From: Xiphophorus maculatus
Taxonomy: Eukaryota; Chordata; Actinopteri; Cyprinodontiformes; Poeciliidae
DNA: 64,000 bases
Reading direction: 5' to 3'
NCBI RefSeq assembly: GCF_002775205.1
Contig: NC_036461.1
Span: forward strand, 9,709,015 to 9,773,014
Positions 3,546-38,800 of the stretch are shown in pieces. Position 1 is the first letter of the stretch; every line of letters starts with the position of its first letter. The notes beneath the pieces are model-generated. The model saw only the letters and a program-made list of their open reading frames with translations. It did not search any database and was not told the DNA's origin. Made by a program: the position numbers and the translations under genes.

Positions 3546-4287
3546 TTAGGTCTTTGTTAATCTTAGCAGCCTTTGGATGTCAGGCTCTACGTCAATAGTT
3601 GGAAAATTCCTGCTGTATCTCTTAAAGGGCTCTCCCTCTGGCCCGATAAGGAATTTCTCAAAGTTCCAGGAGACGTCCGCCCTGCTAACTGGACTCCAAA
3701 CAAGAAATCTGGGATCCTGCATGAGGGAACTTGGGTCATCTTCGGGATAAGGGAGTTTGAATTTGAGATAGGCAAAGACTGGATGTGTGTTTGCTCCGTT
3801 GACATCGCACTTCTCAAACAAGGTGAAGTTGGGCTTGAAGCCACTGCCTGGTCGCACGTGCTGCAGTGAATGCAGAATCTCACCATTGGTACAGTTTTCC
3901 TGCAGAGAACAGGCAATATTGATATTTGGAAATGTTATAAATTAAAAGGGAAAATAAAGGTACATATCAATGATATGCTGGGAATTCTTTTCTACTAGCT
4001 GTAGGAAGATGTCTAAATTTTCCTTCCAGGAAATGAATAAAAAGGTTCACTTCTGAATTACTTACCTGGTATCCAAACTGGTTACAAGGGAAGCCCAGGA
4101 CCACCAGCCGATGGGGGTACTTGCTCTGCAGCTGATTCAGCTCGCTGAAGTCCCGGGCGGTGGTGCCTCAGAGGGAGGCCACATTCTCTATCAGGACCAC
4201 TCGTCCCCTGAAGACATTGAAGTCTACCGAGTCCCCTTCTAGCGAGGTGGCCCTCAGGTCATAGAAGGTCTTAGCAATGAAGGTCAT
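3546..4287 (-). CDS. gpx2: Glutathione peroxidase 2 (selenoprotein), two exons
   Basis: Reduces hydrogen peroxide and organic hydroperoxides with glutathione; in mammals GPX2 is the epithelial, gastrointestinal cytosolic form. Exon 1 is 4066-4287 and ends at a GTAAG donor; exon 2 is 3546-3899 after a CTGCAG acceptor. The joined frame gives 191 residues, matching the roughly 190 of GPX2. It starts [11 protein letters not shown], carries the active-site segment NVASL-U-GTT with selenocysteine 40 encoded by UGA at 4168-4170, then GFPCNQFG with a conserved Gln, and [14 protein letters not shown] with the conserved Trp. The N-terminus and the ending [14 protein letters not shown]-type tail fit GPX2 better than GPX1. 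A SECIS follows at 3436-3500. Naive ORF calling breaks this gene at the UGA, so only exon 2 is seen as an open frame. Neighbouring rab15 and max match the human 14q23 order. Confidence 0.93.
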
Positions 4288-23800: not shown

Positions 23801-26800
23801 TCTACAAAGAGACCAATGCACTCTTGGAGAAACTACTTAAAAAGGTGTGCCATTATTCAAACCTGTGACATTGACTGAAAGTCTGCCAAAGCCTTGGCAG
23901 TCAAAAATATCTGCTGTCACAGCCAGCAGTTCCTGTAGTTCCACAAATGTTGACTTTTTTTTAGCTTTATAAGCAACAATTGTGTTTGAGAAACACTCTC
24001 AGATTATGTTAATTTCAATAAGCTTTATTATCCTGAAAAGGGATTATTCCATTTCATTGTATTATTGCAAAACATCTTTCTAACTGTGAGAGAGGAATGC
24101 TGGGCTAATCATAAAACTAACTTTAACACTGACTGATAATGTGTCTGAAATCTTTCTGTGTGCAAAAACCGTTTGTTTGCTTTCAAATGCCTCTGCTCTC
24201 CGAGATTTATATTAGCACCACAATACATTAAAGATCTGCTTTTATTGTATCAACCTTCCAGACCTCTCAGGTCTTCCGGTTCTGGCCTGCTCTGCATCCC
24301 CAGAACCAGAACCAAACGAGGAGAAGCAGCTTTCAGCATCTATGCACCACAAATTTGGAACAAACTTCCAGAAAACTGTAAAACAGCTGAAACACTGACT
24401 TCTTTTAAATCTCAACTAAAAACCCACCTGTTTAGAATTGTATTTGAAATGTAATCAATTACAAATTCATTGATGGAACTTGACTTAATGCTTTGTTTTG
24501 ATTATTCATTCTATATTGCATTGTGTTTCTGTGTTTGTAATGATGTAAAGCACTTTGAAATGTCTTGCTGCTGAAATGTGCTATACAAATACAATTTGAT
24601 TGATTGATTGATTAAAAATCTTTACAGAATTTGGTAATCTTCTGTATATTTATTAGTGTGGGAGAAGACCAAGATGCTCAAAGATCTTTACATGCCTTAC
24701 ATCCAGAATGCCAGTGAAAACTGCAGTTAAAAAAATGGTAAAATACTATGATGATGGTTGACTGTAGAACATTAATTAAATCTTTGGTAAGTTTCCCTTT
24801 AAGAATCGTAAAACAATGTTTTGAAAACAAGAACTTGGTGCACAGGTTTGATTTTGACCTAGAATTTTCCATAATCCAAAGAAGATCAAATTGAACTCAC
24901 AAAGTCAAATATGTGCATAGTAATTGTGGATTAGCAAATTGCATCTCAACAACATGCTTTTTGTAGCTTTCAGCAAGCCTTTGGCATAATTCAGCATGAC
25001 CTCAGACTTGTTTTCATTAAAATTCAGAAACTTCTGTGCCTTCAAATTATTATGTGAACTGAGTCAGCAATACACATTTGGTGGCAAATAAACCTCTGCG
25101 TAAAAAGGAAATGTTCTGCTTCCACAAAACAACAGGTACAAAGAAAAAAAGAAGAGGTCCATGAATGGAGTCTTACAGCATCCCTCATGGAAGGTTAAAA
25201 ACAGAGGAGTTACATTTTTTTTATGATAATACAAAACTTTACATCTGAAATTTAGGAAAACATTGGAGACCTAGACTCTCATAGTTCCTGTCTAGAGATG
25301 ATGACCTCATGATTTGCCATACCAAAAGCTGCTATTCAATACAGCAGCACAAGAGTCTGTTGCCAAAAGGAATTCACTAAAATCTACCAAAAGATCAGGC
25401 ATATTTATACATGATAATGACATTTGATTTTGGTAGATAATTTATTTTGAGTAACAATTCTTTGCAATAAATCCTATACTGCCAGAGAGCCTATTTATTG
25501 ACCTAGTAAGAAAAATGTATTTGAAGTTTGAGCAGCAGAACTGAGTACGTGGGTGGAGACAATGAAAAAATGCCAAATCCTCTCTGCCAATCTCAAACGC
25601 CATATTTTGCAAGTAACTCGTTTTGTCAATAGATTGGATGATCGAAGTTTGAAGAAACAAGACAGAATTCAACAATTTATTCATTTAGTAAAAAGGGGGC
25701 TCAGCAGTGCATGGGGGATCTTATACAACCACAACAACCAGGCACCTCCTCCTGGTGCTGATCACCAGCTGGGTCACGCAGCTGGCGATGGAATCTCATT
25801 CTTTGACCACAATTTGTTGAAAGTGGGTCAATGAGATCAGATTGGTATGAATAGCATGCAAAAAATATGCAGTAAGATTGAGGTCAGGATGTTCCACTTC
25901 AATTTCCAGTTTCTAACAATCAACCAAACACTATTTTCTTGCTTTTAACTATATTACTTTCTTGTGTCAAAATTCAGTAAGATTGTTTCTGGTAAAAACA
26001 TTCTGCCTGAAAAAACCCCAACAAAAACAAACAAACAAAAAAACATATCTATAAAGGCCTAAAATGAATATTACATTCATGCCATGAAATTTATGGAAAC
26101 ATTTCACCATAAGACAAGTGATGTGAAAACAGCACCAAAAATGATAAAAGCAGATTGAACACATCAAATAATATTTAATCAAATGTACATGATATATACA
26201 GAATAATCAGACCTTAATTATTATTTTTTTTACATATATCAGAACGCAGCTGTAACAAAAACATACACCTTTTAATCTAAAAGTAAACTCAGTGGAAAGG
26301 TCAAATAAAGCAAACACTGAAATTACACTGATCTGTACATATGTTCTTTTTGCTATCTTGCTTTTTCTGACGGACGTATCTGCCCAAACACTTTACGTCA
26401 CATCTGACGTTACGGCATCCAAAGGAAAATGAACTACAAACTACCTTTGAGAGACTACACGAGCTGCAGAGGCATCACAACAGCTGATCAACAGCTTTCT
26501 CGGCACAAATAAATAAACACGTTTTAGGCTTGAAGCAGGAGTTTCCCAGCAGCCTCAATAACTTAACAAAATACAATATCTTCAGGTGAGGTGTTTCACA
26601 ATGCCACAGATAATCAATCACTAAGCAGTGAGGGCATTTTACTGACATTCACTTTTAAAACTCCTTATTTCACATAATATAGATACCTGTGCATAGAAGT
26701 GGAAAGCTAAGGCCTTATAAGGGAAAGAATATGAGCATGACGAGGGAAAACCAGAAGGAGAAATAGGATGGATTTAGTATTACCCTACATATTGACATGT

Positions 26801-27261: not shown

Positions 27262-30200
27262 TCAGGCCTCCTTCAGTAATGGCATATCTATGGAAAAAAA
27301 AAAAAAGTTAACTGTGTCTGGGAGTATATGAATAAATTAGAATATCACTGGGAAGCTAAAATAAATAATTCAATTCAAAAGGTGAAACTCATATTACATA
27401 CAGTTAAAACATGATGTTAGCATATACTGAGTAAAAAGGCACATCAACTTTAAAATGATTGGCGTCTGAAAATAAAACAAACCAAACCTTGCTGTTTTAG
27501 GTCAGTTAGGATTACCAAACTTATTTCCTAGTTGATGTTTCTACATGTTGCCTCAATATTTTTATACACTATGGCGAAAGACTTCCATTTTGAATCAATC
27601 AAGTTTCCACAAGGTATGTTTAAAAAATGTCCCTGAATGCATTTAGAAATTTTAAATTGGATTTTTAACAATGACTTCTTTTCTGAGTGGCCTTTTAGCC
27701 CAGGTTGAAATAAGACATGTTTCACTATGTATACTGACATTCTAACCTGCTTCAACACACATATTTATATGGTATTTTACTGATGTTCTGGGGTGGATAC
27801 TCATATTTCCTGTATTGTACCATGAATTGGCTTTCCACTTGTTTATTTTTCTTTGAACAGATGAATATGGCACCCTGACATGTCTGGAAATTGTACTCAA
27901 TGATGACCCAAACTTTTTGGAAGTTGTTGAGTCTCTCCCTGACATCATCATCAGTTTTCCCAAATTGTTTAAAGGCATATAAATCTTAATGAACTTAAGC
28001 TTTGACTGTGAAAAAGTTATCTCTCATGTGTTAGACAGGCATTTATCAAATAGAAATAATTTAAGTAATCATAACAGATTTTAAAACACTACAGTTTCAT
28101 CTAATCTAACATCAGACATGGAGAAAAATGTTTGTGTAATAATTTTTTACCATCAGAGTAATCCATCTCAGAGTCTAGCGACAGGCTGTGTTGGTCACTG
28201 CCTGCAGATGCCCTTCTACGTGCAGCGGCGGTGCATCCAGTTGCACCTGCATGCTCCAGAATCCAACCGGAAGACAACGGTGAGGAAGAGGAGGACTGCA
28301 ACACAGGGTGAACGACAGGCATCTCGGACTGCTGCTGTTTGAGAGAAGATGGCCTCGACGGGCCGGCCTCTAGTGCTGAGGCATGCTGACCCTCAGACAA
28401 CACTATCTGGACTCTGGACTCTGGGCTGAGTGTGGAAGCTCCACTGCTGCTTACAGCCTCCTCGTAGGAAGGAAGAGTCACCTGGACCCCTTCCACCATG
28501 ATGGAGACAGGCTGCCCCGATACCCCATGGTCACGTCTACGGAAATAATTTACAATTTGTTCATATGTTTTTACAAAGAGCAGATTCAAGATAATATTCG
28601 GAAGGACAACTCACCGATGAAAGGACTTGAGTTTAGGCTGCAAAAGTACAAACAGCACCACCAGCAGCAGGATTAAAGCCACTGAACTTGCTGTGGAAGC
28701 AACTATGGACAACGCTGGCATTCCCAAAGGCAAAGTTGGAATGTGGTCTTTGGGGCAAAGAATCAATCAACATAGTTATCGTGCTGCAAACATTAGCATA
28801 TTAAAGGTTTATATGTGTCACATTCTTTACCTTGCTCCATGACACAGCTTATCTTCATTTGGTTGTCCCACTGGCCGTACTGGCAGGTAAGATATTTATA
28901 GTCTCCTTTCAGAACATAACCTTCTTCGCAGAAGTATTCAATCACACTGCCGTGAGAAAGTCTTCGGCACGGGGATGGGTGGCATGTGTAGCCTCCGTTC
29001 TCTGGCTGATATGGAGAATCACACACTATGTGGGAAAATATAAAAGAAGCATATGTCTATTATATAACACACCAGGTAAAAAGCAGTCAAACAGCATTAT
29101 CAAAAAATAGGAAGGAATAGCAATGAAGTTGATACTCTGGGCAAAATATGGAGTTCAAAGACGAGTAATGATGCATCTTTACCGTCACTTTGTATACAGC
29201 GAGGAGGTTCTGAGGACCAGTGTCCAGGTGTGGTACAGGTGAGGATGCTGGCTCCATCCAACAGGTAACCGGATTCACAGCTATACTGCAGCACTGACCC
29301 CACCGGGAACAAGCTACTGTTCATGTCAGTTAGGTTAGTTAAAGCATGTTCAACCATCGAGGGTCTTACACAGCCTTAAAAAAACGACACAATAATAAAT
29401 AAAAAGGTATCAGTGACAAATGTACTTCTTTTGCAGAGTTCTTTTTTAGTTATGTAACTCTTCAAATATTTTTATAGTAGTTCATCCACCTTGTTTAATA
29501 ACACAAGTGACTGGCGATATGTTGTCCCATTTTTCGTAGCGACAGGTTCTGAATTTGTAGTCTCCTTTGAGAATGTAACCTTCATCACAGAAATACTCCA
29601 CGACAGTGCCATGAGAAAATCGTCTGCATGGGGATGGGTGGCAGGTGTAGCCTCCGTTTTCTGGCTGATATGGAGGCTGGCAAACTGCCAATGAAAGAAA
29701 AAGTGACATTTTCAAAACCTACAGTAAACACTTCTAGTACACTCAGAAAGGCATCCCATGTGTACCGTCATTGCGTATGCAGCGAGGAAGATTAGAGGAC
29801 CAGTCTCCGATCGAAGTGCAGGTGAGGATGCTGCGACCAACCAGCAGGTAACCTGGATCACAGCTGTACTGCAGCACTGTGCCCACTGGAAACAAGCTCC
29901 TGTTGGTGTCCGTCAGATTAGTTGAACCGTGTTGCACCACAGAGGGTCTAATGCAACCTTAAATAAATGTGACATGGGAAAAAATCTGATTGTTAATTGG
30001 TCTTTTGTTCATTGTTTTGAGAGTAAAAGATTATAAAAGTACCAAAAAATAATCTACTATTGACTGAAAAACTGGCAGATATAATGGTTCTGACCACTAA
30101 CCAGTAAACTGGAACTCAAAAACAATCTTTGCCCAATCAGTGAACACACATTGCTACCATGTTAGATTGACATCTTGTTTCAGTGAGGAAGCTGTCATTG

Positions 30201-33035
30201 CCCAAAAGATGATTCAATTAGCTATTGTTCAGTTTTTTTCTGAGACATTTCAAGAAACCCGTCTTGATTATTCAGGCTGCGAGAGAGTGAGAGAGAGCTA
30301 CACTTCCAGCAGATAATGTGCAAGCTAAACGGAATACAAAAAAGATGCTCTGTCTTTCACAAAGGTTAAGGAGATTTTAGCCGAGCACCAATAATTTCTT
30401 TGACAGAAATATCTTCTGTCTTCCATCCCTACTGCTTAGTCCAGACATATGGAGAATACAGCAGATTGTGGTCACATGCAGAACGCAATCAGTATTTGAA
30501 ATGTTGGTCTCTTGGGAACCTTCCTGATCAGCTTCTTCTTCTATCTTTTCTGTTATTTTGGAGAATTGGCCAGTGTTGAAATGTCAATATTTATACTATA
30601 CCATCTGAAAAAAAGTGAAATGTTTTCAACATTTCATTTTTGAGCAGTCACTCTGAGCAGTTTGTTTTATGATGAATTTTAAAAGTTTCAATTCAATTCA
30701 GTTTGTATATAAAGTGCAAATTTATACAACATGTTGTCTCAAAGCACTTAAAAAGTAATATCTCATGTGAAATTTTTATGCGTTTTTAAGTTATTATGGT
30801 CTCATCATTTTATGGGAAAAGCTCAGCATTTTAACATTAATTGAAAGCTTCTGTAAATAAATAAAACTCATTAATTTATGAAGGATGGAAAAAGTATCTG
30901 AATGCTGTTTATATCTTTCTTTGTTATAGTTCTCTAGGAGAATTCAGAATCACCCAAATCTAGATCAAAGTTTTACTAAAACCAGGGATTGCCAGTCTGC
31001 TATTAAATTTTGAACAAATTTTAAACATTTATTATTTTGGTGACAGGTGTGTATTTAGGACAAACAGATTAAAAACTGTAATATATTGACCAACCTTTGC
31101 TTACACAACTGATCTGCATTGGTCCGTCCCACTGTCCATCCTGACACGTCAGGTAGGGATAATCTCCACTGAGAGCAAAGCCCTCATTACAGATGAACTC
31201 TATTATAGTGCCATGTGAAAACAATCGACATGGGGATGGATGGCAGGTGTAGCCCCCATTCTCAGGTTTGGAGAGGGGTAGGCATGCTGATGAGGGAAAA
31301 GCACAACATACAAATCAGCAGCGCAGCTTTAAAAGTTGCTTATATGTTGGCAAATTGGTCAAAAAATCTGCAGTTTTAGAAACTCGAGAGCAGGATAATT
31401 AAAACTCGATAATGTAGAAAATGAAGTTATGAGAATCAGATGGCAGTCTGGTTGATAGAGAAAAGTAGCTTCGAGTGCCTTACCACCACTTCGTATACAC
31501 TGAGGAGGTTCTGAGGACCACCGGCCTGATGTGGTGCAGGTAAGGATGCTGGGTCCATCTGGCAAGTAACCGGGGTCACAGTTGTACTGCAGCACTGTGC
31601 CCACTGGGAACAAGCCTCTGTTGGTCTCTGTGAGGTTTACCCAGCTGTTCTGGACCATGTAAGGCCTCACACATCCTGAGAAAGAAAGGAGTGGAGAGAA
31701 AGGGACTTCTGAGAAAATGCGTAATTAAAACAACAAATATGTTCCAAGCTTTGAGAGTCTGGAATACAAAACACTAACACGGAAAAATAGAACAAACTTG
31801 ATTCAAGCTAGTTAAAACTCCATCTAAACGTTTTGTTGTCACACTAGAACCTTCAATATACTCTTTACAACTTTCTAACTGAGCTGTCTGCTGTGTTCCT
31901 TCGCCTTCATGATGCTGTTTGTTTACTAATGTTCTCTAACAAATCTCAGAGGACTTCATAGAATAGCTGAATTTATACTCACATTAAATTAGACACAGGT
32001 GAACTCTTTTTACTTATCAAGTGAATACTGGATTGGTTGTATTAAAAAGTATTTAGATGTGTTCTTTAGATGTATTTGGTCAAAAACACAAATTACTAGT
32101 AAAACAAAATAATAAAAATGCTAAATGGCCCAAGGTACACATTTTTATTAGTTACTGGATGTGAAACAAACAACCCAGTAGTGTGCACTACTATAGGAGA
32201 AATAGAAAAAATAAAAAGACGATCATTTTGACTTTAAACCTTCGGCGGTCACAAATTATTAGATTAGATTTATTGTCATAAAACGAGATTAATAGTACAG
32301 CTCTGTTAAGGATTTTACAATCAAACTGTCAAGACACATAAGCCTAGACAGACAATTATAAGTAATAAGTAACAACAATACATAAGCATTTGAACAGTAG
32401 AGTTAAATTACTAGCACAAGAGCACCACTGAACAAAACAGCAGATTAGGAGACAAATATTTTTTTATTGATGTGATAATGGAGTTGTCTCTTGTCTGTTG
32501 TTGCTATTATTATTGTGCAATGTCATTATCAATAATTTCATGATTAAAACATAACATTTATTTTTACTGACAAAATGTTTCAATGTTGAAATAAGATAAA
32601 TATTTACAAAATTAACATTTTATCATGTAGTTTCTATTCAACATAAACAATGCATGTATTTTACCATATTTAAATTCAATCATAATTAACTAATTATAGT
32701 TAAATAGAATTCATGCAATAATATACTTAATATTGTTATCAATACATACTGATGGTATGGATCTGAAAAAAAAAACAACAGCAGAAAAAAAAAAAAAACT
32801 ACAGAGTACTAAACACTAGACAAACATTAAGCCAAACAAATTAGGGATTACATATTACATGCACAAACAAATAAAACTTCGATTTACTCTAATGTGCAAA
32901 CATGAGCTCTGTCTTACCTGAACCTTGCCCAGTGGACGCTAGAGTCAGTACCAGCAGCAACACAAAGGACCGCTCGGTGGCTGAGGTGTGGGCCCAAAAG
33001 GCATTTGAAATTGACTCCAAAATTCCATTGCACAT
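27262..33035 (-). CDS. susd6: Sushi domain-containing protein 6 with six CCP modules, ten coding exons
   Basis: Exons: 32918-33035 (signal peptide, hydrophobic FVLLLVLTLAS), CCP1 31484-31675, CCP2 31095-31286, CCP3 29766-29957, CCP4 29490-29684, CCP5 29183-29374, CCP6 28831-29025, 28615-28747 (transmembrane, SIVASTASSVALILLLVVL, about residues 439-461), 28151-28536 (cytoplasmic) and 27262-27287 (ending DMPLLKEA). The sum is 1821 bases, 606 residues. Every CCP exon is 192 or 195 bases, phase 1-1, with four cysteines. CCP1/3/5 (type A, 'NLT..N..LFPVGTVLQY') alternate with CCP2/4/6 (type B, 'PENGGYTCHPSPCR...SHG'). Human SUSD6, as I recall, has one Sushi, of type B. The tail keeps VSIMVEGVQVTLPSYEEAV, SRVQIVLSEG and an LPSY motif like the WW-ligase-binding motifs in the human tail; human SUSD6 works with TMEM127 and WWP2 to reduce surface MHC-I and is p53-responsive. 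Whether the fish protein does so is inference. Confidence 0.9.
27740..27985 (-). mobile_element. Tc1-like transposase fossil in the last susd6 intron
   Basis: The frame contains SLSTISRHVRVPYSSVQ followed by RKINKWKA, the second helix-turn-helix of Tc1-type transposases ('ISK.L.VP.STVQ.IIKKWK'). Only the N-terminal DNA-binding part is present; the DDE catalytic part is missing. The stretch 27330-27410 next to it ('tatgaataaattagaatatcac') resembles another frequent fish element end. Confidence 0.7.
29958..31094. other. susd6 intron between CCP2 and CCP3
   Basis: At 1.1 kb this is by far the longest intron between CCP exons; the others are 80-200 bases. At 30688-30765 it holds a degenerate fish repeat end ('caattcaattcagtttgtatataaagtgcaaat...caaagcactt'), probably a LINE tail. 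No extra CCP exon was found in it. Confidence 0.5.
31870..32070 (-). mobile_element. Tc1-like fragment in susd6 intron 1
   Basis: Read on the plus strand, 'ctgtgttccttcgccttcatgatgctg', 'tttactaatgttctctaac', 'agaatagctgaatttatact' and 'gtgaactctttttactt' are the reverse of the transposase start and 5' leader of the common fish Tc1-like family. Only this end is present. Confidence 0.6.
32265..32460. repeat. Dispersed repeat beginning AGATTAGATTTATTGTCAT
   Basis: The opening motif is frequent in fish genomes as the tail of a LINE-like or SINE-like repeat whose consensus contains 'ttattgtcat'. It is followed by A-rich, diverged sequence. Family not determined. Confidence 0.35.
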
Positions 33036-33938: not shown

Positions 33939-35773
33939 ATGGAAATCATTAAAGGTAGTTTAGATAATATTTCCCGACCTGCATCGACCGAGCAAACTGG
34001 TAACAGATTTTGTCCTGCTGCGCCTTTTGAGCTGCTTGTTTTGAGCAACGATTCTGCTGATTTCCAGGTAGATAAACAACTCTTTCACGTTGGCTTTAAA
34101 TATAATAAAGGTATATTTTATAGCTTAAGAGAACTCTTTTCTATAAAAGCAGAATGGCAGTGGAGAAATGGAACACCATCATAGAGGCACAGGACCTGGT
34201 AAAGGTAAATGTTCATTCAAGTAGTGGTTTCAAAGTTAGATCTGTGAATAAATGAAATGAAAAGATGATTTCTAGTAGCGTAATTTTAACATAATTATTA
34301 ATAGATGGCAACATTTACATTCAATTATTTATGCAGACACGCCCGCAAATATAGTTGTTCCTTTCAGTAATGCAATTCTGAAAGGAACACACATTATATA
34401 TAATAAAAAAATTTGAAAATAAATTCATCCATCAGAATTAGATCATCTCGGAGTGAAACTTTTATTTATTCATTCATTCAGAAAATAAATCTGAAATTAA
34501 GAAACAAATAACAATTAGATGTTTCTGTTAGTTTGAAATTAAAACTGACAGAAACATATGAATGCACAGCTTGCAAATTGAACTCAGCACTTAATTACAA
34601 TTAAGCTGTTGCTCCATTATGCATACCAAAGAAGAAATTCTTCTTTCACATCAGTTTTTTTGCTGAGGTTACAGGAGATGAAAATGAGGATTCAAAGCTG
34701 CAGAGAGCCTTTGAGGAAATGAAACGACTTGATGAAATTCTGTCAGCAGAAATTTTCAAGGAAAAAGAAATTCGGTGTCAAAGAAAAGAACTCCAAGCAA
34801 AAATGTGGCAAGAGCTCCAGGTAGACATGACATCAGTGCTTGGGTAGCCAGGTGAAAATAGTCTTTTTAATGAAATGAGTAACCTTTATGCTGCATAATG
34901 TATGATTATATGCTCTGTTCTTTTTTTTTCTTACAGAGAAAACCTGACAAATACTCTGACTGTGCTCACGAAGCATTCAACACAAAGCTGTTTTTGGCTT
35001 TGGAAGCCCACACTTGTGTGTAAATCCAACACCGATTAAGAACATTACTAAAAAGCGTGGTGTACCTGGCTTAAGTGTTGATATGCCTTAAACATTTTCA
35101 TATTCTGTCCCAGTAGAACCACACACTTCAGTGAGTTTCATTGGGAATTTATGTCAAAGTAGTGGATTTTGTTTGAAGTATGTAGAAAAATTATGTACGT
35201 TCTTTGCTTACTTTTCTTTACATGATATTTTAACATCATTAAGATTAAATGAAGAGAATTGATGAGCATCAGTTTAGAAGTATTTTCACAGATTCTCACT
35301 TGGACCTATGTTTGAACTTTGACTGAACCATTCTAGTACATTAATATGTGTTTATGTGAACTGTTCCATTGTAGCTCTGTCTGTATGTTTAGGAATGTTT
35401 TCCTGTTGAAATGTGAACATTTGGCCCAATCTTGGATCTTTTGCATCGTTTAACAAATTTCATACAGCAGGTCTAAATCTGTAGCTTCTAATGAACTCTA
35501 ACCAGCTCTACTCTCCCTGCACAAGATCAGCATTTCCAAATCATGACAACCACTATGTTCAGTGTTAGCCATTTATGGTCTGATCTGAACAGATCAGCTT
35601 ATTCAACACATTTACCACATACCTTGTGACAATCTGTAAACAAGACATCTTTTCTATGGAAATGAAATGAAATTTTTATTTATTTTGAGCGTATGAAATG
35701 CAAGATTTTGCTTAGGGGTATCATGGTGAAGATGATGGATTAAAAATACATGCTAAAAACTTTTGAATTTTAT

Positions 35774-35839
<66 letters not shown>

Positions 35840-38800
35840 TTTTATTTGTATAGCACATTTCAGCAGCAAGACATTTCAAAGTGCTTTACATCATTACAAA
35901 CACAGAATCACAATGCAATATAGAATCAATCATTAAGTCAAGTTACATCAATAAATTTGTAATTGATTACATTTCAAATACAATTCTAAACAGGTGGGTT
36001 TTCAGTTGAGATTTAAAGGAAGTCAGTGTTTCAGCTGTTTTACAATTTTCTGGAAGTTTGTTCCAAATTTGTGGTGCATAGATGCTGAAAGCTGCTTCTC
36101 CTCGTTTGGTTCTGGTTCTGGGGATGCAGAGCAGACCAGAACCGGAAGACCTGAGAGGTCTGGAAGGTTGATACAATAAAAGCAGATCTTTAATGTATTG
36201 TGGTGCTAAGCCGTTCAGTGATTTATAAACTAACAACAGTATTTTAAAGTCTATTCTTTGAGCTATAGGGAGCCAGTGGAGGGACTTTAAAACTGGTGTT
36301 ATGTGCTCTATCTTATATGTAAAAAGAAAAAGTCAGTTTTCCCTCCATGTTTCAGTTATGCAGTAATTTGTGTTGGTTTATAGCATAAAGTCCCAATAAA
36401 ATACTCTAAAGTTTGTGGTTGTGTTATGACAATATGTGAAAAAGTTCAGGGAGTATGATTGCTTATGAGAGGCAATGAAAGCCTGTCTGCCATTCACACT
36501 AATATGGTTTTATTATCACAAAGGTACAAAAGAAGAGGACCATTATGCACCTCTGTTTGAGACCCAGGTTCTGGACTGTGAGCATGATGGGGACGACCAA
36601 GGCCTGCAGCAAGGTGAGCTTGTGCTACTTTAGAACATTATTTTCAGTTGTGTTAACAAATTTGTGCACTGGATGGCGCTAAAAGCTCACGAAGCCTGTA
36701 ATAGTAGGTTTTCTCCATTAATGTGACATTTTCTTTTTCCAAAGATCTTTGCAAAACTTTAGTCACTCTTCAACAATTTCCTAATAAAAATCTTAGGAAT
36801 TTTTATGGTATTAAAATCCCAGAGAATGAGAAAAAAAACAACTTTTTAAACAGAAGCTATAGAGGAGTGAGGAATTCTGTGTTTTCCCCAGGAACACACA
36901 TCTGAAATGTTAGCATATGTTTCATTAGTGAATATTTCATCATGTTTAAAAAGATGCATTCTTAAACGTTTCTTCACTGAAATAAGACGTGTCTTACTCG
37001 ACAGCTGAAAAGCCGCCTTACAGCTTGACTTCATCATTTGAAGGAAGCAGTGCAAATAATGAGGGCCTCCGGTTTGTGGAGAGCAACAGCAAAACTTCCA
37101 AAACAAAAAACAAACAGAAGGACTTTGTCCAGAGGAACATCGAGGTATGATTAAGCTCATGTTGTGTAAAAAAAATTGCACTATTTTCTCATGTCTTTGA
37201 GTTAAGTTTTTCAGCTGTTGATTTTTCCAGTTGGAAAAATGTGTTTCCCTTTAGATGTACAGACTCACGTCTATATATCAGCACTGACTGCATAAAAATG
37301 TTATGCAAATGTTGATTTTCCATCTTTTTCCCCATTATGTTGTATAATGCAATAGCTGGCAAGCAGTGATGTGGGTCGAGTGCGCTTGACCCGTGCAGAG
37401 AAAGAGCGTCTGGCTGAACTCCTTCAAGAAATAAACGAAGAGGAAGAGGACAGCGCCAGCGGCACAGACAGTGAGGTAGGCTAACATTTGGCCATAACAG
37501 ACAACATATGCTATAGGCCAGTGGTTCTCAAATGGGGGTACGTGTACCCCTGGGGGTACGTGGAGGTACTGCAGGGGGTACGTGAAGCTTTTCAAAATAT
37601 CTTTAAAAAATCAGTAGGCTCCTCATAATAAGTCTTGGGAAAAATTATTTTGTAAAAAGTTTGATAAAATATAAATGTGTGTTCATGCATTGAATTTTAT
37701 ATTCAATATTTAGTTTCAATATTCTTGAAAATAAAACGGTTTGACTGGTTTTATACCTTCCTGGTGGTCACCGTCTTCTGTTTTTCTTTTTTGTTTAACC
37801 ATGCAATGTTTGCAATATGGATGTATTTGTCAGGTTCACTGATATAAGTTGTTTGGCTTTAATAAATCAGACAGTGATTTTACAGCACTGTATCTCTTTT
37901 TAATTCCAAAAATGTTTTGCCCGTGTCAGGGGGTACTTGACTAAAAATATATTTTTAAGGGGGTACATCACTGAAAAATGTTTGAGAACCACTGCTATAG
38001 GCTGAGTCTTTCTACCATCTGTGTAGAATCCTTAAGGGGAAGCACCATGTCCTACTGTATTATTAATAACTAATACTTACTGCAATAAAAAAATTTTTTT
38101 TCTGCATTTACATTATGTGTATTTTGTTAATCACAATATTTTAAATATCATATTATGATTAAAAACAATGCTCCTAACTACAGGGCCTTGAAGGTTTTCC
38201 CAACCCTTGGACACTTCACTTTTTTTTTTTAAATCTTGTTGCAAGCAGAAACTTTCAGATATTTTATTTGGGTTTTATACAAAACACCAGCACAAAAAAA
38301 AGGTGTACAACTGTAAAATGAAAGTAAATGTTTTTTTCCCCTCTCAAATAAAATCTAAATATATGTGGTGATGGCAGCATGATGTGGTGGGGATGGTTTT
38401 CTTCAGCACGGATGGATAATATATTTAAGAGTTGAGGGGCAAATTGAGGTTAATGCAGGAAAGTCCAGGAAAAAAAACTTTGAATCTTCAAATAACTTGA
38501 GACTGAGACTAATGTTACATGAAGGCTACAATAGGAATTTGGTGTAAGTTTGAAAGAACTATTTCTTTTTTTTGGTTTTAAAATAAAAAAACAAACATAA
38601 AACCTTACCAGAAATAGGATGGATATCTTTTCTTCCATCGGATGTTGGTATTTGTGGACAATGATGTAAAACAAAAATAATATAGTTTCCAACCTAATGA
38701 CAAGAAAAATGTATCTAAAACATATTACCTGTACTTTGGGCCATTCTGTTATGAAAATTGAATGCAATTATTCCTTTAAAAAACTAAAAAATATATCTAT

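Follow-up and report, generated by a model that had tools for sequence, protein, structure and literature searches.

The susd6 gene examined here raises the question of how a single gene came to encode six CCP (Sushi) modules of two alternating types, how long ago this occurred, and what the additional modules might do. In human cells, SUSD6 and TMEM127 form a complex with MHC-I that recruits WWP2 (PMC12720080, PMC11790895, PMC12922272, PMC12268796), and the tyrosine of the LPxY motif in human SUSD6 is required for WWP2 binding (PMC12720080). The window, i.e. the whole 64,000-nucleotide stretch of Xiphophorus maculatus DNA that was analysed, corresponds to C19:9709015-9773014 in a genome of 704 Mb and 101 contigs. 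Within the window, susd6 lies on the minus strand and comprises ten coding exons that run from 33035 to 27262 and are separated by GT-AG introns throughout. From 5' to 3' the exons measure 118, 192, 192, 192, 195, 192, 195, 133, 386 and 26 nucleotides, and the joined model bears out the intact frame of 606 codons (plus stop) claimed in the sequence-only reading. All six CCP exons are of phase 1-1 and are arranged in the order A1-B1-A2-B2-A3-B3, with the coordinates, lengths and phases that had been described. The features of the gene are as follows.

32918..33035, minus strand: coding exon 1 (118 nt), with the start codon (MC...) and a signal-peptide-like hydrophobic stretch; exon 1 of the C15 gene (see below) has the same length and MC start
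31484..31675, minus strand: CCP exon A1, 192 nt, phase 1-1; Pfam Sushi 49.4 bits
31095..31286, minus strand: CCP exon B1, 192 nt, phase 1-1, six cysteines; Pfam Sushi 36.7 bits
29766..29957, minus strand: CCP exon A2, 192 nt, phase 1-1; Pfam Sushi 47.0 bits
29490..29684, minus strand: CCP exon B2, 195 nt, phase 1-1, six cysteines; Pfam Sushi 25.1 bits
29183..29374, minus strand: CCP exon A3, 192 nt, phase 1-1; Pfam Sushi 48.7 bits, AlphaFold2 model
28831..29025, minus strand: CCP exon B3, 195 nt, phase 1-1, membrane-proximal; Pfam Sushi 30.9 bits, 67% identical to the C15 B module
28615..28747, minus strand: linker and transmembrane exon, 133 nt; exon-level matches in the fish's own genome on C19 (100%) and C15 (80%)
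28151..28536, minus strand: cytoplasmic exon, 386 nt, from the gene model
28464..28475, minus strand: LPSY at residues 491-494, equivalent to the human WWP2-binding LPxY (human motif from PMC12720080)
27262..27287, minus strand: last coding exon, 26 nt, encoding ...PLLKEA and the stop; the C15 gene ends alike

The six exons encode CCP modules that fall into two types. Each exceeds 20.7 bits, the threshold set by Pfam for Sushi (47.0-49.4 bits for type A, 25.1-36.7 bits for type B), and Pfam marks six Sushi stretches in the joined protein. HMMs of the A and B modules gave 122.3-146.9 bits to modules of their own type and less than 20 bits to the other, a gap whose size is partly built in, as the models were constructed from these same modules. 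Run against the ORFs of the whole 64 kb window and of a 100 kb stretch of C15, these HMMs detected three A and three B modules in the former and a single A and a single B in the latter; apart from cross-matches between A and B, no other ORF contained a further module at E 0.05. With the C15 modules included, all four A modules contain four cysteines and a sequon at one common alignment column, and all four B modules contain six cysteines; PENGGYTCHPSPC, a loop of type B, is shared without change by the three window B modules. A whole-genome Sushi search, in which 150 of 323 candidate places were scored, included A1, A2, A3 and the C15 A module among the scored places, and B exons were absent from these 150. 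Structure prediction of the ectodomain, run for modules A3 and B3, gave a good model of the former and a poor one of the latter. The AlphaFold2 model of A3 (mean pLDDT 84.9) matches CCPs of factor H, CR2, C2 and FHR-2 in the PDB, with 16 matches at E <= 0.001, which confirms the fold only. The predicted structure of B3 is poor (mean pLDDT 60.9) and had no PDB match at E 0.001 or better, so nothing was rested on it.

The identification of the gene as susd6, which had been proposed from the sequence alone, is supported by several features: a CCP of type B immediately ahead of the transmembrane exon, a conserved transmembrane/juxtamembrane exon, an LPxY motif, an MC start, a PLLKEA end and SLC10A1/MAX-type neighbours. 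Human SUSD6 (KIAA0247, DRAGO) likewise has the MC start, a membrane-adjacent six-cysteine B CCP, a near-identical transmembrane exon, LPSY and a ...PLLKEA terminus. The presumptive human sequence used for comparison has one CCP of type B and LPSY at position 174, and its B module is 65% identical to B3, as compared to 52 and 51% for B1 and B2. By eye, it agrees with the primers printed in PMC11790895 and PMC12720080. The human LPSY motif occupies residues 174-177 (PMC12720080), and the motif starts at residue 237 in the C15 gene and at residue 491 in the window gene; the offsets of 63 (C15 minus human) and 254 residues (window minus C15) equal one and four CCP lengths, respectively. A human LPSY at 174 leaves space for about one CCP, in contrast to the six modules of two types in the window protein. 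The earlier statement that the human protein has one Sushi of type B is thus supported in its number by the position of the motif, and its type is that of the presumptive human sequence. Among the titles and abstract openings listed in literature searches, none gives the CCP number of fish susd6, and scans for chance host DNA from other vertebrates produced 472 pattern stretches in genome_contigs and 69 in viral_contigs, none of which was confirmed.

The tail of the window protein detects a second susd6 gene on C15 (E 2.3e-13 and 8.5e-8), the other four matches of this query outside the window having E values of 0.18 to 6.1. Its layout is as follows.

C15:6027398-6051501: whole gene, in the order exon 1, A, B, transmembrane exon, tail, last exon
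C15:6027398-6027515: exon 1, 118 nt, MC start
C15:6046659-6046853: the one A module
C15:6047677-6047871: the one B module

The C15 gene has an open frame of 382 codons and resembles the window gene in exon order, in its matching exon phases, in its A and B types, and in its transmembrane exon, LPSY and PLLKEA. It differs in having one A-B pair where the window gene has three, a longer tail, and a first intron of ~19 kb. Over the transmembrane segment and tail, 106 of 174 aligned residues are identical between the two proteins, with LPSY and PLLKEA kept in both, and the transmembrane exon is 80% identical over residues 2-46. In its tail (VYGSSG, ETVLVHQA), the C15 protein appears to resemble the human one more than the window protein does. 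The sequence-only reading had set three A-B pairs against one Sushi; the expansion itself stands, but the contrast within this genome is between six CCPs and two, the C15 gene carrying a single A-B pair. Type A is also encoded on C15, which rules it out as a novelty of the window gene; mammals may have lost it, or fishes may have acquired it ahead of the split of the two genes.

The two genes lie in paralogous surroundings. When the 1193 window ORFs were compared with 100 kb of C15, matches were obtained for susd6, a bile-acid-symporter gene (SBF), a bHLH gene (HLH) and repeat-like fragments. The max-like, slc10a1-like and susd6 genes share their order and relative orientation between window positions 11840-33035 and C15:6027398-6089447 (HLH and SBF by Pfam). 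The names slc10a1 and max for the SBF and HLH genes are presumptive; human SUSD6 has SLC10A1 and MAX as neighbours at 14q23-24. Pfam also recognises exons of GPx (3546-3941, minus strand) and FSIP1 (34605-34847, plus strand), neither of which matched anything in these 100 kb. Most likely, the window and C15 genes survive as a pair from the teleost genome duplication. Segmental duplication at a later time is a less favoured origin, divergence at synonymous sites being saturated. Two further stretches of the window (24149-24451, plus strand, and 35967-36332, minus strand) are alike and also similar to several places on C15; the second of the two had no Pfam match at E 0.01, and both probably represent the end of a reverse transcriptase of the LINE type.

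Comparisons among the window copies support tandem duplication of an A-B exon pair and indicate that the duplications are not young. At the residue level, the A modules are 67% (A1-A2), 67% (A1-A3) and 70% (A2-A3) identical, and the B modules 57% (B1-B2), 65% (B1-B3) and 70% (B2-B3). The concatenated pairs are 62% (1-2), 66% (1-3) and 70% (2-3) identical in residues and 67, 70 and 75% in bases, respectively, so that the description of pairs 2 and 3 as far more alike than either is to pair 1 was overstated. When columns were bootstrapped 2000 times, no two pairs were closer than 2 and 3 in 1508 replicates, so that theirs was probably the latest split, by a small margin. The NG86 dS between pairs 2 and 3 is 1.03 (95% interval 0.61-1.90; 2 of 300 resamples saturated), and values of 1.95 and 1.88 were obtained for pair 1 against pairs 2 and 3 (53 and 52 of 300 resamples saturated, respectively). 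At neutral rates, a dS near 1 corresponds to many tens of millions of years. A blastn search among the introns revealed no convincing similarity between copies, the best match across different introns being 28 bases at E 0.011; the A-B introns are of unequal length (197, 81 and 157), and the direct-repeat families hardly extend beyond the exons. Given a dS of about 1 (0.61-1.90) and introns without convincing similarity, the tandem duplications look old, and the earlier description of one of them as fairly recent does not hold. Tandem arrays are known to attract assembly errors, but the idea that this one is an assembly artefact or a very recent tandem duplication is hardly credible: the copies differ in 25-33% of their bases, dS lies between about 1 and 2, and the introns have diverged as described, which rules it out. 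Of the two susd6 genes, the one in the window has undergone a real expansion, which is probably old.

A module tree was built with FastTree, and an unrooted quartet of concatenated pairs (1, 2, 3 and C15) was subjected to 2000 bootstraps. The quartet grouped pairs 2 and 3 against pair 1 and C15 in 1763 of 2000 replicates, the two alternatives receiving 108 and 129. The branch to the C15 pair is the longest (0.61, as compared to 0.15-0.28), and midpoint rooting on it puts a single A-B pair first and the expansion on the window side. Being unrooted, the quartet fits equally a reading of pair 1 as orthologous to the C15 pair, in which case three pairs would have existed before the genes split and the C15 gene would later have lost two. 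The B modules are compatible with such a history: the C15 B is 67% identical to B3 (57% to B1 and 59% to B2), as near to B3 as B1 is (65%), and on B alone the window copies do not stand apart from C15. However, the window A modules are 67-70% identical to one another and only 43-49% to the C15 A, and the C15 branch is the longest, a pattern that gene conversion among the window copies could mimic. We consider expansion before the split very unlikely. The polarity that is likely, judged from two genes of one fish, the presumptive human sequence and midpoint rooting, is a single A-B pair first and a later expansion in the window gene. The ancestral susd6 would then have encoded a signal peptide, one A, one B, a transmembrane helix and a tail, a layout that C15 would retain. 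In the window copy, the two-exon A-B unit would have been duplicated twice in tandem, with pair 1 splitting off first, followed by the separation of pairs 2 and 3. We hold this reading of the history and architecture with considerable confidence.

Whether the usual protein has all six modules depends on splicing. With phase 1-1 throughout, any of the six CCP exons could be left out in frame. Off-consensus donors follow B1, A2 and B2; on a table of donor scores, the A2 donor (ACG|GTACAC, window 29757-29768) is the lowest of nine at -2.2, making A2 a candidate skipped exon. Most transcripts could accordingly lack one or two pairs, so that proteins with two or four CCPs would be the usual form and six a minor one. 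Against this, omega between pairs 2 and 3 is 0.08-0.34, with dN far below dS, which indicates purifying selection on the exons of these pairs, which are presumably translated. Moreover, other obligatory exons have modest donors as well: that of the cytoplasmic exon, which must be used, scores 0.8 on the same table. Predominant skipping is therefore a rather unlikely account, although in-frame skippable exons with weak donors make isoforms likely enough to matter.

The membrane and cytoplasmic portions of the protein suggest what it does. Both fish copies appear to conserve the motif through which human SUSD6 binds WWP2, and the retention of the transmembrane exon, LPSY and PLLKEA indicates that the adaptor end is probably working. 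On these sequence grounds we lean towards the view that the window protein keeps a SUSD6-type adaptor role, in which LPSY would recruit a WWP2-like ligase and cargo at the membrane, MHC-I for example, would be sent to lysosomes. The membrane-proximal B3 may retain the old contact with cargo near the membrane, and pairs 1 and 2 may form a long arm, glycosylated at the sequon common to the A modules, that would provide reach, avidity or extra contacts. A CCP measures ~3.5-4 nm, and such an arm could extend well past MHC-I. This division of labour between B3 and the distal arm is proposed tentatively. B3 has accumulated 4 changes of its own against 10 in B1, and 3 against 8 in B2, small numbers that we reckon not significant, and the slowest-looking A module is A1 (3 versus 7) and not A3, so a slower membrane-proximal module is not a rule for type A. 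Taken as a whole, the combination of history, architecture, kept adaptor and arm is probably the right explanation.

Two other roles for the distal pairs were considered. The extra pairs could merely lengthen a stalk, such that length would count, sequence would not, and no new partner would be involved; the more diverged appearance of B1 and B2 relative to B3, together with the N-glycosylation sequon shared by the A modules, agrees with this. A stalk, however, would not require the identity of the loop PENGGYTCHPSPC in all three window B modules or a dN far below dS, both of which are more than length demands, and we regard it as unlikely. The different or additional extracellular partner suggested by the sequence-only reading is a possible consequence of the enlarged ectodomain. 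In one such account, the window copy may have turned from a two-CCP MHC-I adaptor into a long-armed receptor after the split, its distal A-B pairs binding a further ligand and the C15 gene keeping the old task; the ligand might be a divergent class I protein of fish, a fragment of complement or a molecule exposed by an adjacent cell. If so, a ligand beyond MHC-I in cis would be sent for WWP2-dependent degradation, a prospect that we rate as quite doubtful. SUSD6 has been newly recognised as an MHC-I brake in mammals, and the fish copies with two and six CCPs amount to a natural experiment. As the copies have the LPSY tail in common, they would show which module picks the cargo and whether added modules change it.

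The growth of CCP arrays by duplication of exon pairs is a common mechanism and ordinary in itself. Like complement receptor 1 (CR1) and other tandem CCP arrays, the window gene has a repeated block of CCP exons, but the CR1 repeat unit comprises seven CCPs, whereas that of the window gene comprises two and occurs three times. It further differs from the CR1-like RCA group in having the SUSD6 transmembrane segment and adaptor tail, and is not known to bind complement. SUSD6 did not appear by name among the PDB matches listed (the best 60 of 86, the best 60 of 107, and 59 of 59), and the best PDB sequence matches among those listed are to CR1, factor H and CR2.
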